NCBI RefSeq assembly: GCF_902833085.1
Contig: NZ_CADFEB010000001.1
Span: 789,742-853,741, forward strand
DNA length: 64,000 nt
Reading direction: 5' to 3'
Source of the DNA: Burkholderia ubonensis
Lineage (GTDB): Bacteria; Pseudomonadota; Gammaproteobacteria; Burkholderiales; Burkholderiaceae
In this document: positions 1-38,735 of the stretch, piece by piece
Layout of the letters: every line of letters begins with the position of its first letter
Numbering within the stretch: position 1 is the first letter of the stretch
Made by a program: the position numbers and the translations under genes
The notes under the pieces: generated by a model
Told to the model about the DNA's origin: nothing
Database searches by the model: none
The model's input: the letters and a program-made list of their open reading frames with translations, nothing else

Positions 1-3000
1 CCTGCTCGGCAGCCGCGTCGCGCAGGACGGCGTGGTGGGCGTCACGACGAGCGTGAACACGCCGGGCCGGATCACGATCTCGACCGTCGACGAGTACCGG
101 TCGAACGATCCGCTCGGCAACGCGTATCCGGGGACGCCGCTCGTGACGGGCACCGCCGACGACGCGCACCGGGCGGGCCTGCTCACGTTCGGCCCCGGAT
201 CGGTGACGACCGTGCTGCCGGACAACAACGGCCAGACGGCGACGTCGACGCCCGGCACGGTGTTCACGCCGGGCGGTATCGCGATGACGGCGGGCGCGGT
301 GTGGTTCCAGCGCGGATCGCTGATCGAGGCGCCGGGCTCCAACGTGTCGGTGACGGCGCTTTCGCCGTCGGCGTTGGTCTATACGCCCGACGTCGCGCGG
401 AACGCGGCGCCCGGCCGCATTTATCAGGATGCCGGCTCGACGATCGACGTGTCGGGGCTCGCGAACGTCGGGCTGCCGATCGGCCAGACGCTCGTCACGG
501 TGCCGCGCATCGGCCAGAACGAGCTCGCCGATTCGCCGCTGCTGCGCGACAGTTTCCTGGCCGGGCTGAAGAACGTGATCGTCGACAGCACGCTGACGGG
601 TACGCGCAGCGACGGCGTGTCGTGGGTCGGCAGCCCGATCCTGAACCTGTCGGGCTATGTGAACCTGATGCCGCGCACGGTCGACCAGCTGCTGACCAAC
701 GGCGGGACGATCACGCTGTCCGGCAACGAAGTGATGACCGCGCCCGGTTCGTCGATGAACCTGAACGGCGGCTACGTGCACTACGAAGGCGGCATCGTCG
801 CCACGACGCGCCTCGTCGACGCGAACGGCGCGATCGTGCCGATCGGGCAGGCGAGCCCGTACCAGACCTACGTCGGGATCGCGGGCCAGTTCGTCGAAAA
901 CCATCCGCGCTGGGGCGTGGCGAAGTCGTGGTACAACCCGCTGCAGACGGGCGGGGTCTATCAGCCGGACTACATCGTCGGCGGCAACGCGGGCACGCTC
1001 GATCTCTTCGCGACCTCGGCGCTCGTGCTCGACGGCGACATCAGCGCGCACGCGTTCGGCGGCGCGAAGCAGATGCAGGGCAACAGCCTGCCGTCGGGCG
1101 GGACGTTCAATCTCGGCGCCGATCCGAAGCTCGACGGCAGCGCGCTCGCCAATCTCACGTCGAACAACGCAAACGGCGCCCCGTCCGGCGTATCGGGCCT
1201 GACGATCCTGCAGGACCGGGCCCCGCAGCTCGACGATCTCGCGCCGGGCTTTTCGAGCAGTACGCCGATCGACAAGACGGCGCTGCAGAACGTCGCCGCC
1301 GCCGATCCGCGCAACGTGCTGACCACGATGGTGGTGCCGGTCGCCGCGCTGAACGGCGGCGGTTTCTCGAACGTGAGCGTGACGCAGGACACGCACGGCG
1401 GCAAGGGCATCGTCGTCGCGCAGGGCACGCGCCTGAACGTGCAGCCGGGCGGGTCCATCGCGCTCGTCAGCCCGACCGGCGGCGCCGACGTCAACGTATC
1501 CGGCAGCCTGTCCGCGCCGGGCGGCGCGATTTCGATCGCGAGCGGCGGCAACATCGTCGTCGGGCCGCAGGCGGTGCTCAGCGCGGCCGGCCAATGGGTC
1601 AACAACGACGTGCGGGCGGCGCCGGGCACGACGCCCGGCAACACCCAGTTCATCAACGGCGGCAGCATTTCGCTGGCGACCAGCGAGGGCTCGGTCGGAA
1701 CCGTCGGCGTTGGTTTCAAGGACACGACGGGTTCGATCCTGCTGCAACCCGGCAGCGTGCTGGACCTGTCGAGCGGCGGTGAACTGCTGCCGAACGGCCA
1801 GTTGCTGATGCGGAACGGCATCCCGGTCGGGCGCGGCGGGAACCTGTCGTTGCAGACCTACGTGGCGCCCGCCACAAAGCAGTTCGGTCACACGGCCGAC
1901 GGCGGCGCGGTCCTGCCGACCATTCAGCCGGCGAACGGCACGATCGCGCTCGGCGGCACGATTCTGAGCGACGGCTTCTCCGGCGGCGGCACGCTGACGC
2001 TGCAGGCGCTCGGCTTCCGGATCGGCGGCGATCCGGCGACCGCCGCGCCGTGGGACGTCTATTTGCCGGAGCGCTTCTTCGCGCAGCAGGGTTTCGGCAA
2101 GTACGTGCTGAATGCGTACTACGACGCGACCGTGGCGCCCGGCGCGACGGTCGCGCTCACGCAACGCAATCTCGTTCCCGACACGCTCGCGCTGCGGCAG
2201 GCGGCCACCGGCGCGAACCTGTCGACTTCGGGCCTGACGACGTCCGGCCGTCTCGACGACTATCACCGGCAGCCGACGAGCCTCGTGCTGACGGGCGGCA
2301 ACGACGTGTCGTGGCTGACGTCGCTGGCAGCGGTGCCGTCGTACCCGGGCGTGACGGGCGCGGTCACGCTGTCGTCCGGCGCGTCGATCCATGCGGATGC
2401 CGGCGCGAGCATCGGCTTCGGCTCGCCGACGCAGGTGACGGTGCTCGGCTCGATCGTGGCGCCGGGCGGGGCGATCACGCTCAGCGCGGACACGGGCGGC
2501 CCGTTCGCGCAGACGGGGCAGTACAGCGTCTTCACGCCGAGCGACAGCCGGTCGGTCTGGCTCGGCGCAAACGCGACGCTCGACGTGTCGGGCGTCGCGA
2601 TCGCGAATCCGCTCGCCGCGCCGGTCAAGGTCGGCGGGAAGGCCGTCGTGCCGAACACCGGCAAGGTCCTGCCGGGCGGCTCGGTCACGCTGTCGAGCGA
2701 TGCGGGCTATGTGGCCGCGCAGCCGGGTTCGCGGATCGACGTGTCCGGCGCATCCGCGAACTTCGACCAGTTGCAGGCGAACGGCGCTTACGCGTCGCAG
2801 CCGCTCTGGAGCGATGCCGGTTCGATCACGCTGTCCGCCGCGTACGGCCTGTTCGCCGACGCGACGCTGGCCGCGCAGGCGGGCGCCGCGCAGGGGCGGG
2901 GCGGTACGCTGACGATCCTGCCGCATCAGAGCGGCGGCGCCGGGGCGACCGCGCTGGTCGTGCGGCAAGGCGGCGAACTGACGCCGGCCGGCCTCGCGGC

Positions 3001-6000
3001 GGGCCAGAGCTTCGTCACGGCGATCGATCCGACCACCGGATTGCCGATCGGCCAGCCGACCGGCGTGCTCCAGTTCGCGGCCGACAGGCTGGACGGATCG
3101 GGGGTCGCCAATCTGGTGCTCGGCAACGGCGGGATTACGCCGTTGGGCATGGAGGTGCCGCCGATCGTGTTTGCGGGCGATGTCAGGCTGGCGCTGTCGG
3201 AATCCGTCACGTTGAATACCGGCCGCATCGCGGCGCTCGGGATGGACCAGCTCGCGACGCTGCTGTCGACGCCGGCCCGTCAGCCGAGCGGCGGCACGAT
3301 ACCGCGGTCCGTCATCCAGGACCTGCTCGCGCAGCCGCCGCAGCGACCGCTCGGCACGACGATCGAAATCGATGCGCCGTACGTCGCGCTGGCCGGGCCG
3401 GCATTGACATCGCAATCTCCGGCATTCGCGCCGGTTGCGACGGTGTCCGACGCGACGCTGAACGTGAACGCGTCGTTCATCGACCTGCGCAACCAGTTCC
3501 AGCTCAACAACATCGGACACGCGAACTTCACCAGCGCCGGCGACATTCGCGTGAGTTCGATCAATGCCAATCCGGCGGGCACGGCTGCGGCCCCCGGCAT
3601 GCTCTATACGCCCGGCAATCTGTCGTTCAAGGCAGCGAACCTGTATCCGGCCACCGGCAGCACGTTCATCGTCGATGCGGTCGGGCCGACCGATCCGGCA
3701 ACGGGCAAGCCCGCGCCGACGACGGTCACGTTCGCGTCGAACGGCGCGTCGGCCACGCCGCTGTCGGCGGGCGGCACGTTGCTCGTCGATGCGACCGACA
3801 TCGTGCAGGGCGGCACGGTGCGCGCGCCGTCCGGCACGATCGTGTTCGGCGTCGGCGATCCGTCGAATGCCGCGACCAAAGCGCAATTCGCGGGTCTGCC
3901 GCTCGTCGCGACCGATTCGGTCACGCTTGCGAACGGCAGCACGACGTCGGTATCGAATGACCGCCTCCTGATTCCGTACGGCACGACGGTCGACGGCGTC
4001 GCGTGGCAGTTCAACCCGATCGCGGACGTGACGGCGCCCGACCTGGGCGCGCCGCCCGCGAAGTACGTCGGCGTCAACGCCGGCCGCGTCGCGCTCGACA
4101 AGGGCGCGAAGATCGACCTGTCGGGCGGCGGCGACCTGCAGGCGGTCGAGTGGGTGCCCGGCACGGGCGGCACGCGCGACGTGCTGTCGCAATACAACAT
4201 CAGCTATGCGAACAATCCGGCCGGCGTGACGGTGCCGGTCAATCCGGGCGCGGCGAACGTCTATGCAATCGTGCCGGGCGCGCAGTCGCCGGTGGCGGCC
4301 TACGATCCGGTATTCGCGCAAACCGCGCAGCCGCCGGCGGGCGGCGCGGCGGGCAGCACGACGGCGAGGCTCGGCGTCGGCCAGGCCGGCATGAACGATG
4401 CGATCGGCAAGGCCGTGTACCTGTCCGGCGTGCCGGGGCTGGCCGCCGGCTACTACACGCTGCTCCCGGGCAAGTACGCGACGCTGCCGGGCGCGTACCG
4501 CGTGACGGTGGCGGGCGTGCCCGGCAATGTCGTGCCGGGCGCGAGCCAGGTGCTGCCGGACGGCACCGTGACGACGGCGGGCTACTTCGCCGATGCGGTG
4601 ACGGGCGGCCGCAGCGCGACGCCGACGCTGTTCAGCGTGCAGTCGGGGCCGGTCTGGCAGCGATACTCGCAGTACACGCTGACGGGCGCGAACGGCTTCT
4701 TCGCGGCGCAGGCCGCGAAGAAGGGCAACGTGACGCCGCCGCTGCCGGTGGACGGCGGCCAGCTCGTGCTCGCCGCGACCCGGGCGCTGACGCTCGGCGC
4801 GACGCTGAACACGGCCGCAGGCAGCGGCGGTGCGCCGGCCGAAGTCGACATCGCGTCGCAGGACATCCAGATCACCGGCAATGGCGCCGCCGCGTTGCCG
4901 GGCTATCTGCAGATCGGCAGCGACGCGCTCGATTCGCTGAACGCGGGCAGCCTGCTGATCGGCGGCACGCGCGCGGCGACCGCGAAAGGCGTGACGATCA
5001 CGCCGATCGCGAACAGCGTCGTCGTGTCGAACGATGCCAACACCGCGCTCAAGGGCCCGGAAATCCTGCTCGTCACGAAGACCGACGCGAGCGGCGCGGA
5101 CGCAAACGCGGCGAACGGCTTGCGCGTCGATGCGGGCGCATCGATCGCGGCGGCGGGCGACTATCCGGCGGCGAAGGACCTGCCGATCGCGATTGCGGGC
5201 GACGGCGCGCTGCTGCGCGTGTCGAACGGCGCGATGGCGCCGCTCACGCGCACGGGCTCGACCGGCAGCGGCCTGCTGACGGTCGCCGCCGGCGCGACGC
5301 TGACGGGCGGGCAGGCGCTGACGCTCGATTCGTCGGGAAACCTGAAAGTCGATCCGAGCGCCGTGCTGTCGGCCAAGGCAATCACGGCGGACGGCTCGGC
5401 GATCACGTTCACGGGCGCGAACGGCGCGGCGGCCGCGGCGCTGCCGGGCTTCGTGATCGATCCGGCGGGGCTGGCGCAATTCGGCAACGCACAGCAGGTG
5501 ACGCTGCGCAGCTACGGCGCGATCGGCTTCGTCGGCGACGTGAACGCGACGTTCGGCAACAGCGTGGACCTGAGCGCGGGCACCTTCACGAGCGACGGCG
5601 GCCACGTGACGCTGAACGCGCAGCAAATCGCGTTCACGAACGAGACGGGCGCGCCGAACGGCGCGGCCGCAACGGGCAACGGCACGTTGACCGTCAATGC
5701 AAAGGAAATCGATTTCGGCGCGGGCACGAAGACGATGAGCGGTTTCGGGGCCGCGAGCATGACGGCGACGGGCGGCATCGTCGGGCAAGGCACCGGCGCG
5801 TTCGACTTCGGCGCGCTGCCCGTCACGCTGAATGCGCCGGTGTATCTCGCCGATACGAGCTCGGCATCGACGGTGAAGACGACCGGTGCGTTGACGCTGA
5901 ACGGCGCGCCGGGCGCCGCGCTTGCAAAGACGCCGGTCGGCGGCGCGTGGCGCTTCGTCGGCGGGACGATCGCCGACAACGGCGCGACGATCGCCGCGCC

Positions 6001-9000
6001 GGCGGGCAACGTGAGCCTCGAGGCGACGAGCGGCAACCTGACGATCGGCAGCGGCGCGACGGTGAGCGCGGCCGGGGTGTCGAAGCCGTTCTTCGACGTT
6101 GTGCGCTACGCGCCGGCCGGCGCGATCACGCTGACCGCCGACAAGGGCACGGTCGACGTTCAGGCGGGCTCGACGCTCGACTTCTCGGGCGCGAACGGCG
6201 GCGGCGCGGCGGGCAGCCTGACGCTGTCGGCGCCGCAGCAGGTCGTGAACCTGAACGGCACGATCAAGGGCGGCGCGGCGAGCGGCTACGCGGGCGGGTC
6301 GCTGTCGCTCGACACGGGCGGCGCGGCCGATCTCGACGCGTTATCGAAGACGCTGGCGTCGAGCGGCGTGAACCAGGCGATCGCGATCCATACGCGCGCG
6401 GGGAATCTCGCGCTGTCGGCCGGCAGCACGCTGACCGCGCACGCGGTGTCGCTGACGGCGGACGGCGGCGCGGGCAACGCGGCGGACACGGCGAACGGCA
6501 ACGTGAACGTACTGGGCACGATCGACGCGTCGGGCAAGGCCGGCGGCGCGATCGCGCTGTACGGCCGCAGCGGCGTCGACGTCGAAGGCACGCTGCTCGC
6601 GCGCGGCTCGAATCCGAACCAGCGCGGCGGCAAGGTCGACATCGGCACGGGCGGCGTGTTCGATCCGAATTCGCCCAATCCGTACGACACGACCTACGGC
6701 TACGAGCACATCGATCCGTCGCGAGCCGGGCTGATCCGGGTCGGCGCGAATGCGCTGATCGACGTGTCGGGCGGGACGGCGGGCGGGCTGTCGGGCGGCA
6801 CGGTGAATTTCCGCGCACCGCTGCTGGCGGACGGCACCGTGAACGTGTCGCTGCCGCCGTCGGGCTTCAACGCGGACAAGGGAATCGCGGGTTCGCGCGC
6901 GACGACGCTCGAGGCCTACGCGGTGTGGAGCACGACGGATGCGACGGCGGGGGCGAAGCATTTCGACGGCGTGATCGATCCGGCCGGCTGGTATGACGCC
7001 CGAGGGCACCTGCTGGCCGGCACGTTCACCGCGCAGAGCGCGTCCGGCTCGCCGGCGACCTTCACGTTCACGCCGGATGGAACCGGCGGCGGCACGGTGA
7101 CGAACGACGCGACGGGCGCGACGGCGGCGGTGACGCAGGCGCAGTTGCAGAGCGGCTACGGCGCGATCGGCTTCGGCGGGCTGCAGACGATGTTCTTTGC
7201 GCTGGCGTCGGGCGGCGCCAACGCGGATCATCAGACCTTCTACGGCTACCTGGGCGGGGACGCGTCGGCGGCCGCGCCGGGCACGCTGATGGGCTTCGTG
7301 CGGCACGGGCTCGATGCGCTGAAGAATCCGTTCGCCGGCACCGGGATCGCGAATGCGCGCATCGTGCCGGGCATCGAGCTGGACAATCCGAGTGCATCGA
7401 TCAACGGCGGCAACATCGCGGTGCTGACGAACTGGAACCTCGGGGCAGGGACGTCGCCGACGAATCCGGCATTCCGGTTCAACGGACAGGCGCCGGTCGT
7501 GACGTTGCGGGCGGAGAACGACGTCGACGTCAGGGCGAGCCTGTCGGACGGCTTTTTCCAGATCGACAATCCGATCGGGAGCAGCATCGTCGCGCCGCGA
7601 CCGACGCCGTCGAATTACGGCGCCGCGAACTATGCGTGGTCGGCGCAGCCGTTCGGCCCGTTCAATTACATCCTGGCGAACTACAGTTATCTCGGCCTGA
7701 GCGGGCCGTACAACTGGACATCGGGGAACAGCGACGAGATTGCGCAGTATTACGGCATGTACAAGGAATATGCGCAGTACCTGATGTCGCAGCTGTCCGA
7801 CGGCGCCTGGGCGCTCAACTACGCGGACATGTTGCATCAGAATGCGCAGCAGGCGGCAGGGCAGCCCGTACTGACGCTTCAGGCGCCGACGGCGGCCCAG
7901 GAGCAGGCCGACCCGACGTGGTATCCGCGTTATCTCGCGCAGTATCAGTCGTACGTCAAGGACATGATCAAGTGGCAGGCCGCCCATCCTGGCGTCACGC
8001 CGCACATCGACCAGGTGCAGGCGCCGCCGACCGTGCTGGTGCCGGTCATCGCCGGGGACATCACGGTGCAGCCGCCCCAGACGGACAACACGCCGGCGCC
8101 GGTCGCGGTGGCGGCGAACGCGCTGCCGCTGCTTTCCGCCAGCCTGAACCCGGGGAGCAGCACGTCGTACCGGCTCGTGGCGGGCGCCGATGCGTCGAGC
8201 GCCAATCCGCTCGCGCTGAAGCCGTCTGACGTGTTCTCGGCGTCGACGGGCGGCAACGTGATCGTGGACGGGCATTTCGAGTACAACAACGCGACCAATC
8301 CGAACATCGCCAATCCGAACGGCCTTGCCGTCGTCGCGCCGACGATGGTCCGGACCGGCGTCGGCTCGATCGACGTCGCCGCGGCGAACGACGTCTCGCT
8401 GTTCGATCCGGCCGCCGCGCGCGAGCCGGGGGCGACGGTCATACCCGGCGTGATCTACACGGCCGGCACGCCGTCGCCGAAGGCGCCCGTCACGCCGGCG
8501 GGGTCGACCACGGTCGTGCAGGGCGGGGCGGCGCCGGCGCCCAATATCCTCGTCACGTCGGCGGTCAATCCCGAAGCCGCGGGCGACATTTCCATCCGCG
8601 CGCAGGGCGACATCGCCGGTCTCGAGAACGTCATCGACACGAACGGCACGATCTCCGGGCGGGCCGGTGCGTCGATCGGCCAGTTCTGGTGGCAGTGGAT
8701 GCAGGTCACCGCGAAGCCGACGATCGTCACGGGCGGCAGCGGCTATGTGCCGATCGACCGCACGTCGATCGACTTCGGCGCGTTCGGTCAGGGCGTCATG
8801 AGCGTGGGCGGCAACGTCTCGATCAACGCGGGCGGCAACATCGCCGATCTCGGCGTGTCGCTGCCGACCACCTGGTACAAGGATGCGACGGGCACGCCGA
8901 TCACGGTCGGCGGGGGCAACCTGACGGTGCGGGCGGAGGGCGATATCCGGAGCGGCGACTATTTCGTCGCGAAGGGCGAGGGAACGATCGCGGCAGGCGG

Positions 9001-17282: not shown

Positions 17283-17293
17283 GCATCCGGACG

Positions 17294-26085: not shown

Positions 26086-27750
26086 ATGCCGCCAACAGCA
26101 GACCGTAAATCACGCGAGCCGCGGCGGCTCCGACGCCGGTGCCTGGCCGGCGTGGCGCTGGTCGGGGGACTGAGCCTCGCGTCCGGCGCTCGCGCGCAGG
26201 AGGCCGGCGCGGGGGCGGCGACGCCGGCGGCGCCGCCGGCGAGCGGCGTGCCGCAGACGTTCGACGTGAACGCATTCATCGTGCGCGGCAACACGACGTT
26301 GCCGAGCATCGAGATCGAGAAGGCGGTGTATCCGTTCGAGGGGCCCGGCCGCACGCTGGCCGACGTGAACGCGGCGCGCGATGCGCTGCAGAAGGTGTAT
26401 CAGGACCACGGCTACCAGTCCGTCGTGGTCGAGCTGCCGCAGCAGCAGGTCAAGAACGGCGTAATCCTGCTGCAGGTGGTCGAGGCGAAGGTCGGGCGGC
26501 TGCGCGTCGACGGCGCGAAGTACTACTCGCCGCAGAACATTCGCGACGCGGTGCCGGCGCTCGCGGAAGGCGTCGTGCCGGATTTCAACCAGGCGCAACT
26601 GCAGCTCACCGACCTGAACCGCTCGGCGGACCGCCAGGTGATTCCGGTGCTGAAGCCCGGCACGCTGCCGCAGACGGTCGACGTCGACCTGAAGGTCGAC
26701 GACCACAGCCCGCTGCACGGCTCGCTCGACCTGAACAACGACAGCAGCCCCGGCACGTCGTCGCTGCGCACGACCGCGACCCTCAGCTATTCGAACCTGT
26801 GGCAGCTCGGCCACGTGATTTCCGGCACCTACGTGCTCGCGCCGCAGCATCCGAACGACGCGCGCGTCTATGCGTTCTCGTATCTCGCGCCGATCAGGGA
26901 CACGCGCTGGAGCTTCCTCGCGACCGTGGTCCACTCGGACAGCAACGTCGCGTCGGTCGGCGGCACCAACGTGCTCGGCAAGGGCACGACCTACGGGTTC
27001 ACCGCGATCTACGCGCTGCCGGCGTCCGACACTTACGCGCAATCGGTGAGCATCGAGATCGACCGCAAGCATTACGACGAGAAGGTGAGCGTCGCCGGAC
27101 AGTCGTCGACGGTGCCGCTGACCTACGTGCCGGTGACGTTCTCGTACAGCGGCCAGCTCAGCCTGAAGCAGTCGCAGACGTCGTTCTCGGCAGCGCTCGT
27201 GACCAACATCCGCGGCATCGGCAGCGACTGGGGCGCGTGGGACAGCAAGCGCTACAAGGCGACGCCGGATTTCGTCTACGGAAAGTTCGACGTGAACCAT
27301 ACACAGCGCTTCAACAACGACATGCAGGCCAACGCACACGTCAGCGCGCAGATCTCGAACTCGCCGCTCGTGTCGAGCGAGCAGTTCGCCGCGGGCGGGA
27401 TGAACAGCGTGCGCGGCTACCTGCAGGCCGAGGACACGGCCGACAGCGGCGTGATCGGGTCGCTCGAGCTGCGCACCCCGTCGCTCGCGAAATTCCTCGG
27501 CGGCGCGATCGGAAGCCGCATCAACGAATGGCGCTTCCATGCGTTCGTCGATGCCGCGCATCTGTGGCTGCTGAGCCCGCTGCCCGAGCAGACGTCGAGC
27601 TTCAACCTGCTCAGCGTCGGCGTCGGCACGCGGCTGCAGCTCGCCAAGTACGTGAGCGCCGACTTCGAGGCGGGCTGGCCGCTCAAGGCGGGCGTCTATA
27701 CGAAGCAATACAGCCCCCGGTTCGATTTCTACGTGCGACTGGGGTTCTGA
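26086..27750 (+). CDS. FhaC/ShlB-type two-partner secretion outer-membrane pore
   Basis: 554 residues: signal peptide (~1-37, ending SGARAQ), a linker helix region, two POTRA domains (~50-215; FDVNAFIVRGNTTLPSIEIEKAVYPFEGPGRTL, then GVILLQVVEAKVGRLRV), and a 16-strand barrel ending in Phe (FDFYVRLGF). The conserved L6 loop motif VRGY is present (MNSVRGYLQAE). It translocates a TpsA exoprotein across the outer membrane; the giant protein at the left edge is the obvious cargo. The ATG is preceded by AAGGGGA. It begins the long operon that continues with ExbB, ExbD and TonB. Confidence 0.93.
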   Translation: MPPTADRKSREPRRLRRRCLAGVALVGGLSLASGARAQEAGAGAATPAAPPASGVPQTFDVNAFIVRGNTTLPSIEIEKAVYPFEGPGRTLADVNAARDALQKVYQDHGYQSVVVELPQQQVKNGVILLQVVEAKVGRLRVDGAKYYSPQNIRDAVPALAEGVVPDFNQAQLQLTDLNRSADRQVIPVLKPGTLPQTVDVDLKVDDHSPLHGSLDLNNDSSPGTSSLRTTATLSYSNLWQLGHVISGTYVLAPQHPNDARVYAFSYLAPIRDTRWSFLATVVHSDSNVASVGGTNVLGKGTTYGFTAIYALPASDTYAQSVSIEIDRKHYDEKVSVAGQSSTVPLTYVPVTFSYSGQLSLKQSQTSFSAALVTNIRGIGSDWGAWDSKRYKATPDFVYGKFDVNHTQRFNNDMQANAHVSAQISNSPLVSSEQFAAGGMNSVRGYLQAEDTADSGVIGSLELRTPSLAKFLGGAIGSRINEWRFHAFVDAAHLWLLSPLPEQTSSFNLLSVGVGTRLQLAKYVSADFEAGWPLKAGVYTKQYSPRFDFYVRLGF

Positions 27751-29644: not shown

Positions 29645-30055
29645 ATGCAGGTTCAGGACGACGACAAGCCGTACGACGACATCAACATCACGCCGATGCT
29701 CGACCTCGCGTACGTGCTGCTGATCATCTTCATCATCATGACGACCGCGTCGGTGCAGGGCATCAAGGTGGACCTGCCGAAGGCGAGCTCGTCCGCCAGC
29801 CTCGCGAAGCCGAAGACGAAGGCGATCACGGTCGCGGATTCGGGGCAGATCTTCCTCGATGCGTATCCGGTGACGATGGACGAGCTCGAAAACCGGCTGC
29901 GCACCGAGAAGGCGAGCAACCCGGAATTCCCGATCGTGCTGAAGGGCGACGCGGCCGTGCAGTACCAGCGCGTGATGGACGTGCTCGACCTGCTGCGGCG
30001 CCTCGACCTGTCGCAGGTCGGCCTCGTGACCGGCAAGGCGAAGCAGGGCGGCTAG
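29645..30055 (+). CDS. exbD: ExbD/TolR-family biopolymer transport protein
   Basis: 136 residues. It has a short cytoplasmic N-terminus, one membrane helix (~19-40) with the essential protonatable Asp (D20 in ITPMLDLAYVLLIIF), and a periplasmic ExbD domain with the usual ending (LDLLRRLDLSQVGLVTGKAKQGG). It completes the ExbB-ExbD motor that energises TonB. It lies 20 bases after the ExbB-like gene and 3 bases before tonB. Confidence 0.95.
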   Translation: MQVQDDDKPYDDINITPMLDLAYVLLIIFIIMTTASVQGIKVDLPKASSSASLAKPKTKAITVADSGQIFLDAYPVTMDELENRLRTEKASNPEFPIVLKGDAAVQYQRVMDVLDLLRRLDLSQVGLVTGKAKQGG

Positions 30056-30058
30056 GCG

Positions 30059-30754
30059 ATGGAAATGACCTACAACGGCGGCGGGCCGAACAAGGGGCCG
30101 GGCCGCTTCGTCAAGCCGGCCGTGATCGTGCTGGCGCTCGCGGGGCTCGGCGCGCTGGTCTGGCATTTCGCGAGCGACACCGCGGGCGTGAAGCGCGCGA
30201 GCGCGCCGCAGGTGACGACCGTGATTCCGCTCCCGCCGCCTCCGCCGCCGAAGCAGAAGCCGCCGCCCGAAAAGGTGAAGGACGAGGTGAAGACGCCGGT
30301 CGACAAGCCGAGCGTCGCGCCGAAGCCGTCGGAAGCGCCGAAGCCGTCGGACAACCAGCCGAAGCAGATGACGATGAACGCGCCGGCGCAGGCCGGCACG
30401 GACAACTTCAACATCGGCGCGGGCGACGGCTCGGGGATGGTCGGCAGCGGCGGCGGCGGCCGCTTCGGCAACGCGAGCTATGCGCAGTACATGGTCTACG
30501 TGCTGCAGCGCGCGATCGAGCAGGACAAGGCCGTGCAGGAGGCGGGCGGCGCGCGCTTCGCGGGCAGCCTGAACCTGTGGCTGGAGCCGTCGGGACGGAT
30601 CGCGAAGGTGACGATCGCGCAGTCGACCGGCGACGCGCGGATCGACGCGGCGGTGGTCGCGGCGGTCGAGGCGCTCGGCAAGGTGGACGAGGCGCCGCCG
30701 CCCGCGACCGCGTATCCGGTGCTGGTCCGGCTGCAGGGGCGCAAGCCGGCATGA
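30059..30754 (+). CDS. tonB: TonB energy transducer
   Basis: 231 residues: one N-terminal membrane anchor (~19-37, AVIVLALAGLGALVWHF), a Pro/Lys-rich spacer (~57-105 with PPPPPPKQKPPP and repeated PKPSEAPKPS), a Gly-rich hinge, and a C-terminal TonB domain (~145-228, YMVYVLQRAIEQDKAVQEAGGARFAGSLNLWLEPSGRIAKVTIAQSTGDARIDAAVVAAV). It would carry ExbBD energy to an outer-membrane protein. No TonB-dependent receptor is encoded nearby, so the target is probably the porin-like barrel downstream or the TPS apparatus. Confidence 0.93.
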   Translation: MEMTYNGGGPNKGPGRFVKPAVIVLALAGLGALVWHFASDTAGVKRASAPQVTTVIPLPPPPPPKQKPPPEKVKDEVKTPVDKPSVAPKPSEAPKPSDNQPKQMTMNAPAQAGTDNFNIGAGDGSGMVGSGGGGRFGNASYAQYMVYVLQRAIEQDKAVQEAGGARFAGSLNLWLEPSGRIAKVTIAQSTGDARIDAAVVAAVEALGKVDEAPPPATAYPVLVRLQGRKPA

Positions 30755-30834: not shown

Positions 30835-32640
30835 ATGATTCGGAAATCGAATGAACGGGGGAGCGAGCACCGGCGCGGCGCGATGCCCGCGCGCCTGACG
30901 CGCGTCGGCGCGGCGGCGCTCGCGTTCGGCGTGAGCTGCGCGCACGCGCAGTCGCTCGACGCGCAGGCCGCGGCGGGCAGCGCGGCGCCGACCGAGAGCG
31001 TGGTGATCAACCTGATCAACCTGCTCGTCAAGCGCGGCGTGCTCACGCAGCAGAATGCGACCCAGCTGATCGGCGAGGCGCGCGCGGAAGCCGCGCAGGC
31101 GAAGGCCGCGCGCACGACCGGCGGCGCGCGCACGGCGCTCGCCGGCGTACCGATGCCGCCGACGCAGCCCGGCGACGTCGCGGTGCCTTACGTGCCGCAG
31201 GTGGTGCGCGAGCAGATCCGCGACCAGGTCAAGCAGGAGGTGATCGCGCAGGCGAGGGCCGAGAACTGGGCGCAGCCGAACACGTTCCCGGACTGGGTGT
31301 CGCGCATCACGCTCGACGGCGACTTGCGCGTGCGCGACGAATACCACTTCTACGGCAGCGGCAACGCGAACAACGTGACGAACTTCGCCGCGATCAACCA
31401 GGGCGGCGGCTTCGACATCAACCCGAACACCAACACGACGCAGCTGCCGACGCAGAACACGACGCAGAACCGCAACAACCTGCTGCGCTACCGCGCGCGG
31501 CTCGGCGTGACGGCGACGCTGTCCGACGAGCTGACGGCAGGCCTGCAGCTCGCGAGCGGCAACGACAACGGGCCCGTGTCGACCACGGCCACGGCGGGCG
31601 GCGGCTTCGGCAAGAAGAACATCTGGCTGAACAAGGCGTACTTCGCGTACCGGCCGACGTCATGGCTGAACCTGACGGCCGGCCGCTTCGACAATCCGTT
31701 CTTCAAGTCGGACCTGGTGTTCTCCGACGACCTGATGATGGACGGCATCGCCGCGAACCTGCGCCATGCGCTGCCGTGGAACCCGGACGTCACGCTGTTC
31801 GGCACGCTCGGCGTGTTCCCGATCCAGTACACGAGCGAGAACTTCCCGTCGAACAGCACCGACAAGGCGGGCAGCGACACGAAGTGGCTGTTCGGCGCGC
31901 AGTTCGGCGCGGACTGGAAGATCAACGCGCAGAACCGCCTGAAGGGCGCGGTCGCGTACTACGACTTCCAGAACATGCGCGGCACGCTGTCGTCGCCGTG
32001 CGCGCTGTATCTCGGCGCGACGAGCTGCAGCACCGACAACCAGGCGCCGGCCTTCATGCAGGGCGGCAACACGCTGCTCGCGCTGCGCAACATCGTGCAG
32101 AACCCGAACCTCGCGCCGGGCATGACACCGCAGCCGCAGCTGTTCGGGCTCGCGTACAACTACCGGCTGCTCGACCTGAAGGCGCAGTGGGATACCGTCG
32201 TCGCCGACCGCTTCAAGCTGCGGCTCGACGGCGAATTCGTGCGCAACCTCGCGTACAACGAGAACAAGGCGTTCGGCGCGGCGTCGCTGCCGGTCAACAA
32301 CTACGAGTCGACGTCGGTGAACGCGACCCGCGCCGACTACCGCAGCGGCCCGAACGGCTTCCTCGCGAAGGCGACGCTCGGCGAGCCCGAGCCGCGCGCG
32401 AAGGGGCAGTGGAATTTCTCGATCGCGTACAAGTACCTGCAGCCGGACGCCGTGCTCGACGCGTTCAACGATTCGGACTTCCACCTGGGCGGCACCAACG
32501 CGCGCGGCTACGTGATCGGCGCGGCCTATGCGGTCGCGCGCGACGCGTGGGTGTCGGCGCGCTACATGAGCGCGAAGGAAGTGTACGGCCCGCCGGTGTC
32601 GATCGACGTGCTGCAGCTCGAGCTCAACGCCCGTTTCTGA
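30835..32640 (+). CDS. Large outer-membrane beta-barrel of the putative porin family
   Basis: About 600 residues. The start at 30835 has GGAG at a good distance; an ATG at 30811 is possible. The signal peptide ends GVSCAHAQ, and a helical/charged N-terminal part (~50-150) with KRGVLTQQNATQLIGEAR follows. The long barrel (LDGDLRVRDEYHFYGSG, LLRYRARLGVTATLSDELTAGLQLASGN, WLNLTAGRFDNPFF...) ends in LQLELNARF with a terminal Phe. This is the layout of the putative porin family (PF16930 type). Lying after tonB without a classical receptor, it may be the barrel energised by the local TonB, although I cannot see a TonB box. Confidence 0.85.
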   Translation: MIRKSNERGSEHRRGAMPARLTRVGAAALAFGVSCAHAQSLDAQAAAGSAAPTESVVINLINLLVKRGVLTQQNATQLIGEARAEAAQAKAARTTGGARTALAGVPMPPTQPGDVAVPYVPQVVREQIRDQVKQEVIAQARAENWAQPNTFPDWVSRITLDGDLRVRDEYHFYGSGNANNVTNFAAINQGGGFDINPNTNTTQLPTQNTTQNRNNLLRYRARLGVTATLSDELTAGLQLASGNDNGPVSTTATAGGGFGKKNIWLNKAYFAYRPTSWLNLTAGRFDNPFFKSDLVFSDDLMMDGIAANLRHALPWNPDVTLFGTLGVFPIQYTSENFPSNSTDKAGSDTKWLFGAQFGADWKINAQNRLKGAVAYYDFQNMRGTLSSPCALYLGATSCSTDNQAPAFMQGGNTLLALRNIVQNPNLAPGMTPQPQLFGLAYNYRLLDLKAQWDTVVADRFKLRLDGEFVRNLAYNENKAFGAASLPVNNYESTSVNATRADYRSGPNGFLAKATLGEPEPRAKGQWNFSIAYKYLQPDAVLDAFNDSDFHLGGTNARGYVIGAAYAVARDAWVSARYMSAKEVYGPPVSIDVLQLELNARF

Positions 32641-32652: not shown

Positions 32653-33339
32653 ATGAAGACCACGCAACATGCGATCGTCGCGGCCGGCCTCGCCGGTGCG
32701 CTGCTGCTGGCCGCCGGCGGCGCCGGCGCGCAGGGCATCGAGGACAAGCTGCGCAGCCAGCTGCGTTCGACCGTGCAGGAGCTGCGTCAGCTCCAGAACG
32801 GCCAGGCGCAGTTGCAGGCGGACAAGACGGCCGCCGAGCGGCAGCGCGACGACGCGCTCGCGCAGCTGAAGGCGGCGCAGGCGCAGCTCGCGGCGGCCAA
32901 GGGGCAGTCGGGCGGCGAAGCGGCCGCGAAGCGCGCACTCGCGCAGGAGCGGGCCGTGCGCGAGCAGGATGCGCAGGCGCTCGCGAAATACAAGGCGTCC
33001 TACGAGGATCTGTTGACCGTGTCGCGTGCACGCGATGCGCAGCATACGCAACAGCAGGGCGAAATCCGTGCGCGTGACACGCAACTGCAAACCTGCCAGG
33101 CCCACAATGCGGAGCTGTATCGCGTGGGCCGCGAGATCCTCGATGCGTACGAGCATGTCGGCATCGGCACGCTGTTCGCGTCGCGGCAGCCGTTCGCGGC
33201 CGCTGCGCGCGTGAAGTACGACGACCTCGCGCAGCGTTACGGCGATGCGCTGTATGCGGGCAAGTACGACCCGGCCGCGCGTGCGGCGAACCCGGCAAGC
33301 GCGCCCGCGGCGGCGTCCGCGCCTGCCGGCGCTCAGTGA
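32653..33339 (+). CDS. Periplasmic coiled-coil protein
   Basis: 228 residues. A signal peptide (~1-26, LLLAAGGAGAQ) is followed by a long coiled coil (~30-150) rich in Ala, Gln, Glu, Lys and Arg (QLRSTVQELRQLQNGQAQLQADKTAAERQRDDAL...). A short globular end contains YRVGREILDAYEHVGIGTLFASRQPF. I do not recognise a named family. It is 12 bases after the porin gene and probably acts as a periplasmic spacer or scaffold of the same apparatus. Confidence 0.8.
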   Translation: MKTTQHAIVAAGLAGALLLAAGGAGAQGIEDKLRSQLRSTVQELRQLQNGQAQLQADKTAAERQRDDALAQLKAAQAQLAAAKGQSGGEAAAKRALAQERAVREQDAQALAKYKASYEDLLTVSRARDAQHTQQQGEIRARDTQLQTCQAHNAELYRVGREILDAYEHVGIGTLFASRQPFAAAARVKYDDLAQRYGDALYAGKYDPAARAANPASAPAAASAPAGAQ

Positions 33340-33400: not shown

Positions 33401-33967
33401 ATGCTGGACAGCAAGATTGAAGCGTCGGGCGACCGCCCGGCACAGGACGCGCTGATCGATGCGATCGGCGTCGACGCGCTCGCGGACGTGTTCCGCAATG
33501 CGGGCTACCGCGTGACCGCGACCGAGCAGAACGGCGCGGTGCAGCTGATGAGCGCGAGCCAGGGCGTCGGCTTCGCGGTGCGCTTCGGCAACGCCGCGCC
33601 GCCGCAGGGCGAGGCCGCAGGTGCGTCGATTGCGCGCTACCTCGACTACACGCTCGGCTGCGTGCTGCAGGTGCAGGGCGACCTGCCCGCGCAGCTGGTG
33701 GCCGACTGGAACCGCACGAAGCGCTTTGCGCGGCTCGCGAGCCACGGGCCGTTCCTTGCGCTGGAGATGGACGTGATCGTGGCGGGCGGGGTGTCCGTGC
33801 GCTACCTGCGCTCGACGATCGAGTTGTGGGACCGCATGGTCCAGGAGTTCCTGCTGCATTTGCGCAACCGGCCGGCGTTCGCCGAGCAGGAAGCCGCCGC
33901 GCGCGCGGGTAGCGACCCGGAGACCGACGACGCGGGGCAGGGTCGCGCGGAAGCCGCCGCGCAATGA
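33401..33967 (+). CDS. YbjN-like protein
   Basis: 188 residues from the ATG at 33401 (AAGGAAGAG upstream). The core ALADVFRNAGYRVTATEQNGAVQLMSASQGVGFAVRFGN...YLDYTLGCVLQ...LVADWNRTKRFARLASHGPFLALEMDVIVAGGVSVRYLRSTIELWDRMVQEFL matches the YbjN/type III chaperone-like fold. There is no signal peptide, so it is probably cytosolic and may be a chaperone for an exported component of the operon. Its stop overlaps the next start (ATGA). Confidence 0.75.
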   Translation: MLDSKIEASGDRPAQDALIDAIGVDALADVFRNAGYRVTATEQNGAVQLMSASQGVGFAVRFGNAAPPQGEAAGASIARYLDYTLGCVLQVQGDLPAQLVADWNRTKRFARLASHGPFLALEMDVIVAGGVSVRYLRSTIELWDRMVQEFLLHLRNRPAFAEQEAAARAGSDPETDDAGQGRAEAAAQ

Positions 33968-34422
33968 CCGGCGCCGGCCGGATCGGCGCGGCGCTGCGTG
34001 CGCTGCTGACGCGCGGCCGGCCGGCGCAGCGCGGCCCGGTGGCGGTCGGCGACGCGCCGGCCGCGTGGGCCGACTATGCGCAGCGCGTCGCGCAGCGGCT
34101 CGCAGCGGCGCTCGACGGCACGGACGCGGCGGCATCCCGCTTTCGCGCGCAGCTCGAACGTGATGCGGCGCGCAGCGAGGACGACGAGAACGGCGACGCG
34201 CCCCCGGCGCTGCGGCTGAAGGCATGGCTCGACCGGCGCGGCAACGTCGAGCGGGTCGAGAGCGCGCCGGCGTTCGCGCCGGACGTCGCCGCGGACCTGC
34301 GCTCGGCGCTGGTCGGCCGGCGGGTCGGCGCGCCGCCGCCGCGCGGGATGACGCAGCCGGTGGTCGTGCGGGTGCGCGTTGCGGTTCAGGACAGCAGTCA
34401 GACAGGACAGGAACGATCGTGA
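33964..34422 (+). CDS. TonB_C-like protein
   Basis: 152 residues. The second half (ALRLKAWLDRRGNVERVESAPAFAPDVAADLRSALVGRRVGAPPPRGMTQPVVVRVRV) has the beta-alpha-beta pattern of the TonB C-terminal domain, with the characteristic D/G-x-V-x-R-V strand and a closing PxxVRVRV strand. The N-terminus has only a weak hydrophobic stretch. It overlaps both neighbours by 4 bases (ATGA and GTGA), indicating strict translational coupling. It is one of four TonB_C-like proteins in the locus. Confidence 0.65.
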   Translation: MTGAGRIGAALRALLTRGRPAQRGPVAVGDAPAAWADYAQRVAQRLAAALDGTDAAASRFRAQLERDAARSEDDENGDAPPALRLKAWLDRRGNVERVESAPAFAPDVAADLRSALVGRRVGAPPPRGMTQPVVVRVRVAVQDSSQTGQERS

Positions 34423-35297
34423 AGAACTTTGCAACGATGATGGGCGGCCTGCTGCTGAGCGTGCCGCTGATGGCGGCCGCGCAGGACGACGTGATCGCGA
34501 ACGGGCCCCAAGCGTCGGTCACGCAGTCGGATATCGCCGCGCTGCTGAAGGCGGCGGGCGACGAAGGGCGCGCGCGGCTCGCGGCCGATCCCGCCGCGAT
34601 GGATCAGGTCGTGCGCGCGACGCTCGCGCAGAAGGCCGTGCTCGCCGAGGCGAAGGCGAAGGGCTGGGACAAGCAGGCCGACGTGCAGTCGGCGATCGAG
34701 CAGGCGCGGCGCGACATCGTCGCGCGCAGCTATCTCGCGTCGGTGAATGCGCCGCCGGCGGACTATCCGTCCGACGCCGAAATCCAGTCCGCATACGACA
34801 AGAATCGCGCGGCGTTCACCGTGCCGCGCGCGCTGCGCGTCGCGCAGATCTACGTCGCGGTCGCGCCCGACGCGGACGCGGCGACCGTCGACAAGGCGCG
34901 CAAGCAGGCCGCGGACCTCGCGAACCGCGCGCGCGGCGGCGACTTCGCCGCGCTGGCGAAGGCGAATTCGCAGGACGCCGCGAGCGCCGCGAACGGCGGC
35001 GACCTGGGCTTCGTGCCCGAGACGATGCTGCTGCCCGCGGTGCGCCAGGCGGCCGACGCGCTGAAGACGGGCCAGGTGTCCGCGCCGATCCGCACGGCCA
35101 CCGGCTTTCACGTGGTGAAGCTGATCGACACGCGGCCGGCGGCGCCGCGTCCGCTCGCGGACGTGAAGGAGCGCCTGCGCACGATGCTGCGCGCGCAGCG
35201 CACGCAGCAGAACGCGCAGGCGTATCTCGCGAAGCTCGGCGGCGACGCGCCGATCAACGAAGACGCGCTGAAGAAGGCGCTCGCCGCCGCCCGGTAG
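34419..35297 (+). CDS. Parvulin-type (PpiC/SurA-like) periplasmic peptidyl-prolyl isomerase
   Basis: 292 residues from a GTG overlapping the previous stop. The signal peptide ends LMAAAQ. A helical chaperone region follows (~30-130), then a PpiC rotamase domain (~134-235) with ALRVAQIYVAV, ARGGDFAALAKANSQDAASAANGGDLGFV, LPAVRQAADALKTGQVSAPIRTATGFHVVKL. It catalyses proline isomerisation and would assist folding or export of outer-membrane and secreted proteins, here probably the giant exoprotein, its pore or the barrel. Confidence 0.92.
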   Translation: MKNFATMMGGLLLSVPLMAAAQDDVIANGPQASVTQSDIAALLKAAGDEGRARLAADPAAMDQVVRATLAQKAVLAEAKAKGWDKQADVQSAIEQARRDIVARSYLASVNAPPADYPSDAEIQSAYDKNRAAFTVPRALRVAQIYVAVAPDADAATVDKARKQAADLANRARGGDFAALAKANSQDAASAANGGDLGFVPETMLLPAVRQAADALKTGQVSAPIRTATGFHVVKLIDTRPAAPRPLADVKERLRTMLRAQRTQQNAQAYLAKLGGDAPINEDALKKALAAAR

Positions 35298-36138: not shown

Positions 36139-36507
36139 ATGGGCGAATGGCGGAAGTGGAGCGTGGCATGGGGTTGCGCGTTGCTGGCGGGCGCCGTCCA
36201 TGCGCAGGCTGGTCGGCCGGCGGCGGCGGGCAGCCAGCCGGGTTCGGCGGCGAAGCCGGTCTGCGTCGATGTGGAAGTAAACGGCGAGCGCGCGCTGTCG
36301 TACGACTGCCTGAGCGCGCAGCTCAAGCCGAAGGCGACGCCGCAGGCTGGCGCGTCGCAGACGGCCGCGGAGGGGCTCGCGACGGCGCCGTCGAACCGGC
36401 TCGGCACGTTCAACCTGTCGACGGAGCGCAACCGCTTCGGCACGAACTGGGGCAAGTCGGCGACGCCGCAGCGCCCGGCGCAGCCGGTCGCGGTGCCGCC
36501 GAAATGA
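36139..36507 (+). CDS. Small secreted/periplasmic hypothetical protein
   Basis: 122 residues: a signal peptide (WRKWSVAWGCALLAGAVHAQA) and then a low-complexity mature part with two cysteines (KPVCVDVEVNGERALSYDCLS) and a repeated Asn/Arg/Phe pattern (NRLGTFNLSTERNRFGTNWGKS). GGGAGGAAGCAGG precedes the start. No family recognised. It may be a small structural component of the periplasmic or surface part of the system. Confidence 0.7.
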   Translation: MGEWRKWSVAWGCALLAGAVHAQAGRPAAAGSQPGSAAKPVCVDVEVNGERALSYDCLSAQLKPKATPQAGASQTAAEGLATAPSNRLGTFNLSTERNRFGTNWGKSATPQRPAQPVAVPPK

Positions 36508-36542
36508 GCGGACGCGCGTCGTTCGCGCGTGAAACGACGAGG

Positions 36543-37988
36543 ATGAGGATCGTGGAATCGGGTATCTGCAGTCGGGCGGGCGTGACGCTCGCGATGCTGG
36601 GCGCGATCGCGCTGAGCGGCGCGGGCGATGCGGACGGATTGGCCGTCGCCGCCGAACGGCCGGCGCAGCCGGCGCTCGCCGCGATGCCGTTGGCCCCCCC
36701 TGAGGCGGCCCTGCCGAACTTCGCCGCGCTCGTCAAACGGTATGGCGCGGCGGTCGTCAACATCAGCGTCACGCGCGAGGTGACGCAGCTGGGCATCCAG
36801 CTCCCGCCGGGCATCGGGCCGGACCATCCGCTCGCGCCGTTTCTCGCGCGCCGCGTGATCGGCAACCGCGAGGAGGTGAGCCTCGGCTCCGGGTTCATCG
36901 TCGGCGCGGACGGCGTGATCCTGACGAACCGGCACGTGGTCGGCGACGCGGCCGTGGTCGACGTGAAGCTGACCGACAAGCGGCAGTTCAGGGGGCGGGT
37001 GATCGGCAGCGATCCGCTGTCCGACGTCGCGGTGGTCCGGATCGACGCGCGCAACCTGCCGACGGTCGTCACCGGCGATCCGGCGCGCACCGAGGTCGGC
37101 GACTGGGTGATGGCGATCGGTTCGCCGTACGGGTTCGCGAACACGGTCACGCAAGGCATCGTCAGCGCGAAGTCGCGCTCGCTGCCCGGCGAGCGTTACG
37201 TCCCGTTCATCCAGACCGACGTGCCGATCAATCCCGGCAGTTCGGGCGGGCCGCTGTTCAGTCTCGACGGCCGCGTGATCGCGATCAACTCGATGATCTA
37301 TTCGAAGACCGGCGGCTATCAGGGGCTCTCGTTCGCGATTCCGATCGACCTCGCGCTCGACGTGAAGGACCAGCTGCTGCGCACCGGCAAGGTCACGCGC
37401 GGACGGCTGGGCGTCGCGCTGCAGGAAGTCAGCGATGCGCTCGCGCGTTCGTTCGGCCTGCCGAATCCCGACGGCGCGCTGGTCACGATGGTCGAGCCGG
37501 GCGGGCCCGGCGCGCAGGCCGGGCTGCAGGCCGGCGACGTGGTGCTCGCGATCGACGGCAAGCCGGTCGCGGATTCGGCGGACCTGCTCGGCACCGTCGC
37601 GGGCATGCGGCCCGGGCATCGCGCGGATCTGCTGGTGTGGCGCGCGGGGCAGGCGAGCCGCGTGCAGGCGACGGTGGGGGCGTTCGACAGCGGCGTCGCG
37701 TCGAGCGGCGATGCGCAGGCGCTGGCGCGATTCGGGCTCGCGCTGCGTCCGGCGAGCGAGCAGGAGCGGCGGCAGCTCGGCGTGAGCCAGGGGCTCGTGA
37801 TCGAGCAGGCGAGCGGCCAGGCCGCCCGCGCGGGGTTGCGGGCCGGCGACGTCGTACTGTCCGTCAACGGTGCGCCGGCCGCGAACGCCGGCGCGCTGTT
37901 CGGCGAGCTGGACCGTGCGCGCGGCGCGATCGCACTGCTGGTGCAGCGCGGCGGCGCGCGGCTGTACGTGCCGGTCGATCCGGGCTGA
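36543..37988 (+). CDS. DegP/MucD-type periplasmic serine protease (HtrA)
   Basis: 481 residues. A signal peptide (~10-27) is followed by a trypsin-like domain with His131 (TNRHVV), Asp161 (DPLSDVAVV) and Ser234 (NPGSSGGPLF), then two PDZ domains (~290-375 with PGGPGAQAGLQAGDVVLAIDGKPV; ~395-475 with AARAGLRAGDVVLSVNGAPA). It would degrade or refold envelope proteins and probably polices export of the giant substrate. The start is uncertain: an ATG at 36504 overlaps the previous stop, and a GTG at 36552 has the best ribosome site. Confidence 0.93.
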   Translation: MRIVESGICSRAGVTLAMLGAIALSGAGDADGLAVAAERPAQPALAAMPLAPPEAALPNFAALVKRYGAAVVNISVTREVTQLGIQLPPGIGPDHPLAPFLARRVIGNREEVSLGSGFIVGADGVILTNRHVVGDAAVVDVKLTDKRQFRGRVIGSDPLSDVAVVRIDARNLPTVVTGDPARTEVGDWVMAIGSPYGFANTVTQGIVSAKSRSLPGERYVPFIQTDVPINPGSSGGPLFSLDGRVIAINSMIYSKTGGYQGLSFAIPIDLALDVKDQLLRTGKVTRGRLGVALQEVSDALARSFGLPNPDGALVTMVEPGGPGAQAGLQAGDVVLAIDGKPVADSADLLGTVAGMRPGHRADLLVWRAGQASRVQATVGAFDSGVASSGDAQALARFGLALRPASEQERRQLGVSQGLVIEQASGQAARAGLRAGDVVLSVNGAPAANAGALFGELDRARGAIALLVQRGGARLYVPVDPG

Positions 37989-38491: not shown

Positions 38492-38504
38492 CGGGCGTGG
38501 CGCG

Positions 38505-38735
38505 ATGACGATCGTGTTGATCCTGGTCGTGCTGGCGATCGGCGTGTTGTTCGGATTCGCCGCGCATGTGGACGCGCTGACCGGCCGGATCGGCCGGCAG
38601 CCGGCACGGGTGCAGCTCGAACGCTTGCGCAGGGAGGCGGTTGCGCTGCGGGCGGCGCTGCGGCGCGCATGGCAAGCGGCTTGCCGGGCGAACGCGCGCG
38701 CCGGCGCCCCGCGGCTTGGTGCAACGGGGAAGTGA
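38505..38735 (+). CDS. Small single-pass membrane protein
   Basis: 76 residues: one N-terminal membrane helix (MTIVLILVVLAIGVLFGFAAHV) and a basic, Arg-rich cytoplasmic or periplasmic tail. It lies 13 bases after the TonB_C-like gene and seems to end the long operon. No family recognised; the short length and strong TM followed by a positive tail are consistent with a small accessory subunit. Confidence 0.6.
   Translation: MTIVLILVVLAIGVLFGFAAHVDALTGRIGRQPARVQLERLRREAVALRAALRRAWQAACRANARAGAPRLGATGK

Follow-up and report, generated by a model that had tools for sequence, protein, structure and literature searches.

The closest described relative of the locus considered here is the PUMA3 (VreI) regulon of Pseudomonas aeruginosa, PA0674-PA0701, which encompasses vreA, vreI and vreR, the Hxc type II secretion system (T2SS), tpsA, a gene now named phdA, tpsB, exbB2, exbD2, a tonB gene, PA0696-PA0698 and the gene for a PpiC peptidyl-prolyl isomerase (PMC2729926; this and the other papers are cited from those parts of their text that were available). 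The vreA product of this regulon combines an STN domain with a TonB/TolA-type C-terminal domain (PMC2729926), exbB2-exbD2-tonB4 is a putative TonB system that was still called uncharacterised in 2020, and PA0696 and PA0698 are a putative porin and a YbjN protein, respectively (PMC7035377). The PUMA3 layout was reported by Llamas in 2009 also for Burkholderia vietnamiensis (PMC2729926), and it matches the window, that is, the whole stretch of 64,000 nucleotides analysed here, which is part of a 7.77 Mb Burkholderia ubonensis genome in 42 contigs (G000:C1:789742-853741). The locus in the window is a Burkholderia copy of the PUMA3/Pdt cluster of P. aeruginosa; loci of this type have been in the literature since 2009 and the arrangement is not new. 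For this further member of a known locus type, the association between a TonB system and two-partner secretion (TPS) is confirmed and sharpened, and the contrast in cargo size that accompanies it is new. The reading that we favour, holding the case for it and the case against it to be evenly balanced, is that the TonB motor serves a pore-porin complex in the export, display or retention of a giant exoprotein.

The window shares with P. aeruginosa PUMA3, as published, vreA-vreI-vreR (STN-TonB/TolA-type receptor, extracytoplasmic function (ECF) sigma factor and FecR genes, in the PUMA3/Pdt order), tpsA, the complete series tpsB-exbB-exbD-tonB-PA0696 porin-PA0697-YbjN-PpiC in the PUMA3 order (order from Table 1 of PMC7035377), and nearby T2SS genes; a candidate phd-like gene lies upstream of tpsB. 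The window differs in that tpsA and the genes for Gsp I/F/G/H precede vreAIR, in that the contig has no secretin or GspL, and in the addition of TIGR03032, APS kinase, TPR-glycosyltransferase-like and HtrA genes. The P. aeruginosa side of this comparison is the published layout, and the sequences compared are named loci of other Pseudomonas (among L070-L092).

Like classical TPS systems (FHA/FhaC, CdiA/CdiB), the locus encodes a TPS domain and a pore composed of POTRA domains and an Omp85-type barrel; with a TPS domain on its exoprotein and a pore of the POTRA_2/ShlB type, it qualifies as two-partner secretion (type Vb). Unlike in the classical systems, the pore has no H1 helix and little linker, and a TonB motor and a porin are its constant companions. 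HxuCBA of Haemophilus influenzae is also a TPS pair that works with a TonB-linked outer-membrane protein (PMC5422565); however, HxuC is a TonB-dependent transporter, whereas the partner barrel in the window is modelled as a plugless 16-strand porin and the locus has motor genes of its own. Proton-driven inner-membrane motors can act on protein secretion, as illustrated by the proton channel SiiAB, which controls retention of the giant type I adhesin SiiE of Salmonella (PMC6272769), and by Oar-PopC of Myxococcus, a case of TonB-dependent protein secretion (PMC6434023). Both act with other outer-membrane machines, and the likeness is one of principle only.

Genes were called from open reading frames (ORFs) and codon-position GC, complemented with Pfam and NCBIfam. 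The exoprotein gene and the module on which the argument rests are as follows.

1..11353 (ORF 2-11353 in the window), plus strand: TpsA, giant FHA-like exoprotein; ORF open at the 5' end, traced upstream; PF05860 TPS domain, E 9.5e-13.
26086..27750, plus strand: TpsB pore, PdtB-like, of FhaC/ShlB type, with signal peptide, POTRA domains and barrel; PF03865, PF08479, structural model and clade.
27831..29624, plus strand: ExbB2-like subunit of the motor, whose DUF2341 and laminin-G/ConA-like domains are predicted to be periplasmic; PF10102, PF13385, PF01618.
29645..30055, plus strand: ExbD; PF02472, E 9e-29.
30059..30754, plus strand: TonB with a proline-rich linker; PF13103, E 2e-5.
30835..32640, plus strand: Porin_5, PA0696-like; PF16930, E 7e-191, and structural model.
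32653..33339, plus strand: PA0697-like protein that looks like a coiled coil and apparently has a signal peptide; no Pfam match; present in 73/73 complete loci.

The exoprotein ORF opens at window coordinate ~-1300 (1.3 kb upstream), placing the TPS domain outside the window, and comprises 4217 codons in total.

Conservation of the module was assessed among relatives of DUF2341-ExbB, for which the best 80 of 421 loci were kept and three plasmid loci added, giving 83. The pore was detected in 83/83, ExbD in 82, TonB in 80, the porin in 78 and the PA0697-like gene in 77, absence being scored by tblastn with the window proteins (E 1e-4, 10 kb flanks), such that divergent or distant genes are undercounted. 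Among the 80 loci, 73 with enough flank are complete, and all 73 have the six genes in the same order: pore, DUF2341-LamG-ExbB, ExbD, TonB, Porin_5 (16-strand) and coiled-coil protein. The 80-locus set was recovered via the motor gene and hence cannot reveal motorless pores; 299 genomes were therefore drawn from the phylum as an independent sample. DUF2341 occurs in 10 of these genomes (11 loci), and ExbD and TonB are encoded at 11/11 of the loci; on the stretch read, the pore is found at 10/11 (adjacent at nine, and ~12 kb upstream in G019) and the porin likewise at 10/11. Porin_5 matches were obtained in 16 genomes, with 12 full-length loci in 11 of them and partial or weak matches only in five (G145, G198, G232, G256 and G290); module genes adjoin 12/12 of the full-length loci. 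Among 72,556 plasmid records, Porin_5 and DUF2341-ExbB are found in an identical set of 11, and the pore at E <=1e-40 in 13, namely the same 11 and two weaker Variovorax records. The reverse search of the 299 genomes with the pore profile, with at most four candidates per genome scored, returned 16 pores in 15 genomes at E <=1e-40. Eleven of these (at least 446 bits) come from ten genomes, all with motor and porin; the other five (176-328 bits) come from genomes in which neither DUF2341 nor full-length Porin_5 was found, and the stretches read around these pores, two of them truncated at contig ends, contain no motor or porin gene. The pore on the Variovorax plasmid belongs with these five motorless ones. 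The neighbourhood comparison that the initial annotation had called for, asking whether an FhaC-type pore and a DUF2341-ExbB/TonB unit co-occur in other genomes, thus came out strongly in its favour, and the gene grouping is more than chance, given the order kept in 73/73 loci and the co-occurrence in the phylum sample and on plasmids. In Rhodopseudomonas palustris and Janthinobacterium, three tpsA-linked PUMA3 copies are reported per tpsB-exbBD-PA0696 set (PMC2729926), as though several exoproteins shared the module as their exporter.

Several plasmid copies of the module have distinctive surroundings. On the Methylomagnum plasmid (L157), distances of up to ~38 kb separate the genes for motor, pore and porin, which are scattered among phosphatase and phoU genes; the island comprises PhoX, another alkaline phosphatase, PhoU and a cluster for a ribosomally synthesised and post-translationally modified peptide with Cys at every fifth position. 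On the Aquabacterium plasmid (L158), ExbD is encoded twice in tandem between the DUF2341-ExbB and TonB genes, and T2SS genes including those for a secretin and GspE lie beside the module. The module is also present on two Klebsiella plasmids (L010 and L011), the latter of which adds VreAIR and two haemagglutinin genes and is typed as conjugative.

Of 51 pores placed on a tree, the 34 that belong to the module, spanning alpha-, beta- and gammaproteobacteria, are split from the 17 others, which come from six of the same genomes (SH-aLRT, the Shimodaira-Hasegawa-like approximate likelihood ratio test, 100), and in a second tree 28 module pores are separated from six sister and five other pores (SH-aLRT 100); both trees were built by a quick method, have long branches and are unrooted. 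The 17 pores remained from 25 non-module POTRA_2 places, six of which were left out as weak or fragmentary, 19 fetched, and two (L143 and L146) found to be without a usable ORF. On these trees, the motor-linked pores are one clade. The nearest pores are motorless sisters, from five genomes of the sample (G036, G102, G178, G240 and G268) and a Variovorax SRS16 plasmid (L160); on the stretches read around the sister pores, there are no matches to ExbB, ExbD, TonB or Porin_5.

The motor-linked pores have short N-termini: the distance from the signal-peptide core to POTRA1 has a median of 24 residues in module pores (58/62 measured, the POTRA start motif not being found in the other four) and 65 in the 17 others (Mann-Whitney p 1e-9, which is overstated given that related pores are non-independent). 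In FhaC, the N-terminal helix H1, which plugs the pore, is dispensable, and its 30-residue linker is needed and occupies the substrate site; H1 and linker are described as predicted in most TpsB proteins (PMC5422565). The AlphaFold model of the window pore (mean predicted local distance difference test score 80.5), with CdiB 6wim and FhaC 4ql0 as its best PDB fold matches, has no helix between the signal peptide and POTRA1, and neither the FhaC-type H1 plug helix nor the ~30-residue linker was found in this protein.

The cargo of the two groups differs as well. Motor-linked exoproteins comprise 3467, 3761, 4121, 4128, 4137 and 4217 (window) residues or codons, whereas those motorless sister exoproteins that have a TPS domain comprise 830, 886, 1244 and 2151 residues. 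The motor-linked exports are thus the longer ones, on small numbers (six against four); outside the count are the G178 ORF, which has no TPS match, and the G036 locus, which ends at a contig end. At its C-terminus, the G102 sister exoprotein (L179:10813-17265) has a caspase-type (Peptidase_C14) domain, which is preceded by FG-GAP and YDG repeats.

T511 and T544 of ExbB are kept in 84/84 aligned rows and the membrane Asp20 of ExbD in 80/80; the ExbD membrane Asp and the ExbB membrane Thr pair are characteristic of a TonB motor, and these motor residues are thus invariant here. The C-terminal domains of TonB, VreA and a small protein encoded at 33964-34422 are homologous (hhalign 99.6, 98.2 and 97.7%). 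The TonB-type part of VreA was already known (PMC2729926); the free-standing third TonB-type domain is not mentioned in the available parts of the published descriptions of the cluster.

In the structural model, the Porin_5 protein is a 16-strand barrel with N-terminal helices and no plug, and a conserved unstructured segment around PGDVxVxYVP (residues 112-121) is exposed. The strict motif pattern is present in 69/78 porins of near relatives and 2/11 sample porins; seven more of the latter have a looser YVP/YIP form and the remaining two lie outside the readable part. A search of PDB with the Porin_5 sequence returned nothing convincing, and identity to the attachment porin OmpM1 of Veillonella is low (19%), with no SLH domain reported by Pfam. 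It is on this barrel that the main rival to the export reading turns: an exoprotein acting like the hemophore HxuA would bind a phosphorus source outside the cell, the TonB motor would act on Porin_5 for import in phosphate starvation, and the pore would only export the capture arm. We consider this scheme possible but doubtful. The window has a PstS-like gene, counterparts of which also lie near the module in L036, L059, L064-L066 and L159. Neither for these export and uptake models nor for a role of the motor in export was a published test found in the openly readable literature.

Under the favoured export reading, the ExbB-ExbD-TonB motor is likely dedicated to the pore and its partner porin and would use the proton gradient to drive, complete or regulate the export of the exoprotein and its display at the surface. 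The binding partner of TonB or of its look-alike domains may be the pore or else the tail of the porin; the motor might give export a direction or hold the exoprotein at the surface. The motor may have joined a pore lineage that was already without a plug, perhaps as cargo grew beyond 3,400 residues, and VreA could report the state of the pore-porin complex to VreR and VreI. In its most elaborate form, which we regard as rather unlikely, this would be an energised type V machine: an unplugged, linkerless pore lineage would have gained a private, proton-driven TonB-ExbBD motor, with a periplasmic lectin-like arm on ExbB, and a partner porin, and with them exports of >3,400 residues; TonB would pull either on the POTRA groove or on the exposed conserved strand in the porin tail, and VreA and the free TonB look-alike would compete for that strand and so report progress.

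A number of observations weigh against the motor serving export. The motorless sister pores are equally short before POTRA1 (6-22 residues in the five of six measured), so that the short N-terminus is no evidence for TonB gating, and the proposal that loss of plug and linker, making room for TonB, was the reason for the motor has been withdrawn. Giant exoproteins such as FHA exit via motorless pores of other clades. The His of the TonB membrane helix, a conserved residue with a described role (PMC12204202), is present in 43/81 proteins, that of the window included, and is not conserved in this set. Porin_5 is modelled without a plug and is therefore no typical TonB client; its candidacy as an ordinary TonB-dependent transporter was rejected, since the model has 16 strands without a plug, as opposed to 22 strands and an N-terminal plug. 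In G219, ExbB-ExbD-TonB are encoded on one contig and the pore, porin and PA0697-like protein on another, and in G230 an ExbB-ExbD-TonB-Porin_5 fragment lies at the end of a 3.8 kb contig in a genome without a POTRA_2 match, which weakens a strict dependence between pore and motor. Classical TPS requires no energy source, and its reconstitution in liposomes has been achieved (PMC5422565). In P. aeruginosa, insertions in tpsB, tonB4 and PA0696 did not reduce VreI-induced killing of zebrafish, a virulence readout, not one of secretion (PMC2729926). Finally, Pho boxes detected by consensus number two in the window, against 1.98 expected, and neither lies at a locus promoter.

Phosphate starvation is nonetheless likely to be the inducing condition, by analogy with P. 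aeruginosa, in which a single promoter transcribes phdA, pdtB, exbB2D2, tonB4 and PA0696-0701 with PhoB dependence (PMC4971064). In the window, the best Pho-box candidates upstream of tpsA and vreA have four mismatches, and a putative sigma-VreI promoter block shared by tpsA and phd (26/45) was matched by 91/100 shuffles; one of seven pairs, tpsA against the TIGR03032 upstream region, exceeded the shuffles (29/45, 0/100). The common P. aeruginosa promoter speaks for the view that the TonB unit lies beside the TPS pair only because phosphate starvation calls for both, with neither acting on the other; so do the T2SS, which is already such a co-regulated neighbour, and the sister pores, which manage without a motor. 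Still, the joint presence persists where the genes are dispersed over one plasmid (Methylomagnum) or over separate contigs (G219), the set is constant while phosphatases, T2SS and VreAIR vary around it, and the pore clade is tied to the motor, such that a shared regulon alone appears quite improbable. A TPS variant with a dedicated TonB unit, as proposed in the initial annotation, is supported as an association, given the strong co-occurrence and the single clade of motor-linked pores; at the level of sequence comparison, the link between TPS and TonB appears to be a dedicated one.

A further suggestion is that the motor and the TonB-type domains sense or place tension on a pore-porin-VreA complex, with VreR/VreI control or envelope attachment, not transport, as the output. 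Against such a signalling or tethering role, which we hold to be unlikely, VreA is dispensable for sigma-VreI activation in vitro and for P. aeruginosa virulence (PMC7035377), and VreI or VreR is encoded near the module in only 39/80 relatives (10 kb flanks).

The remaining genes of the locus are listed below.

11779..13224, minus strand: PstS-like phosphate-binding-type periplasmic protein (PBP_like_2); E 4e-26.
13609..14826, plus strand: GspF, T2SS inner-membrane protein, accessory neighbour; PF00482, E 5e-59.
14852..15337, plus strand: GspG major pseudopilin, accessory neighbour; PF08334, E 1e-42.
15312..15815, plus strand: GspH pseudopilin, accessory neighbour; PF12019, E 3e-5, and N_methyl.
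15987..16727, plus strand: VreA-like protein with STN signalling and TonB-type C-terminal domains; PF07660, PF13103; hhalign to the TonB of the locus 99.6%.
16734..17282, plus strand: VreI-like ECF sigma factor; PF08281, E 7e-13.
17279..18286, plus strand: VreR-like FecR anti-sigma factor; PF04773, E 3e-13.
19371-20336, minus strand: gene.
20363..22045, plus strand: PhdA-like, at the place of PA0691; PF02604 near the C-terminus, E 2e-4, under the curated cut-off; synteny.
22038..23027, minus strand: GspK pseudopilin, accessory neighbour; PF03934, E 8e-13.
23090-23656, minus strand: gene.
24126..25274, plus strand: TIGR03032/DUF4915 protein, start codon uncertain, accessory; Pfam/NCBIfam; 19/83 loci.
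25264..25935, plus strand: APS kinase, accessory; TIGR00455, E 3e-67; 13/83 loci.
33401..33967, plus strand: YbjN-family protein, PA0698-like; PF10722, E 2e-6; 52/73 complete loci.
33964..34422, plus strand: free-standing TonB-type C-terminal domain protein; hhalign 98.2% to TonB and 97.7% to the VreA C-terminal domain; no Pfam match.
34419..35297, plus strand: PpiC-type peptidyl-prolyl isomerase, PA0699-like; PF00639, E 1e-20; 47/73 complete loci.
36420..37988, plus strand: HtrA/DegP-type protease, start approximate, accessory; PF13365, E 3e-32; 22/83 loci.

The T2SS genes of the locus are limited to F, G, H, K, I and one further pseudopilin gene; GspI and this second pseudopilin, which has only an N_methyl motif, are encoded upstream of the window. 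A complete Hxc-type T2SS was not found in the locus (GspE, C and M were not searched genome-wide); the sole GspL match of the genome is on contig C10, with a second GspF beside it, and none of the nine secretins of the genome is on C1, the contig of the window. In 27/80 relatives, at least one of the genes for Gsp F, G, H and K is located no more than 10 kb from the module, and such genes occur at 3/10 sample DUF2341 loci other than the window, both counts being lower bounds on account of the short flanks. The initial annotation had envisaged exoprotein assembly through both the TonB unit and a T2SS-like pseudopilus, and in Burkholderiaceae the Gsp genes are indeed interleaved with exoprotein and regulator genes. 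However, T2SS genes were not found near most module loci, the contig of the window has no secretin or GspL, and the equivalent Hxc system of P. aeruginosa secretes the phosphatase LapA (PMC7035377), which together render this full model very improbable. The expectation that T2SS-like genes co-occur with the module failed accordingly, and the pseudopilus was rejected as a part of the machine, the T2SS being incomplete here, with Gsp genes near a minority of loci and GspL and secretins on other contigs. The T2SS genes are likely a co-regulated neighbour, separate from the pore-motor machine.

The gene content given in the initial annotation was borne out by Pfam and NCBIfam, with the correction that its STN protein is an STN protein with a TonB-type C-terminal domain. 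Its list lacked the two upstream pseudopilin genes, two TPR genes and the TIGR03032/DUF4915, APS kinase and Phd-like genes, as well as the YbjN protein, the PA0697-like protein and the third TonB-type domain (33964-34422). The description of the genes as small co-directional units is only partly right, because the minus strand carries 19371-20336 and 23090-23656 as well as GspK and the PstS-like gene. The two TPR proteins are encoded in tandem upstream of the exoprotein gene (L012:10852-13155 and L012:13159-15456), have weak Glyco_transf_9 (heptosyltransferase-type) C-terminal ends and possibly glycosylate the exoprotein before export; the TIGR03032/DUF4915 and APS kinase genes directly upstream of the pore gene hint that the exoprotein, or else a surface glycan, is sulfated.

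A short ORF after vreR (18360-18761) encodes a second FecR N-terminal (DUF4880) domain and appears to be left over from the duplication of an anti-sigma gene. The ORF at 38505-38735 has no Pfam match, and nothing was observed that links it to the locus. Outside the locus, the window contains a NucA/NucB-type DNase gene (56512-57624) and an ORF (57701-59737) that unusually fuses MoeA domains, in a single frame, to a SUKH (SMI1/KNR4) domain at the C-terminus. No Rfam matches and no tRNA genes were found in the window, and its nearest DNA in the plasmid collection is from Burkholderia (B. stagnalis, 91.9% across 6.6 kb).

Type V secretion is taught as energy-free, and its driving force is an open question (PMC5422565). 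A pore clade that spans alpha-, beta- and gammaproteobacteria and has its own TonB motor and porin, beside motorless sisters with smaller cargo, provides a concrete system in which this question can be tested. The association also offers a role for the DUF2341-bearing ExbB and for Porin_5, both described as being without known function (PMC12505986; PMC7035377), and could account for the fact that the STN domain used in PUMA3 signalling has no receptor barrel.

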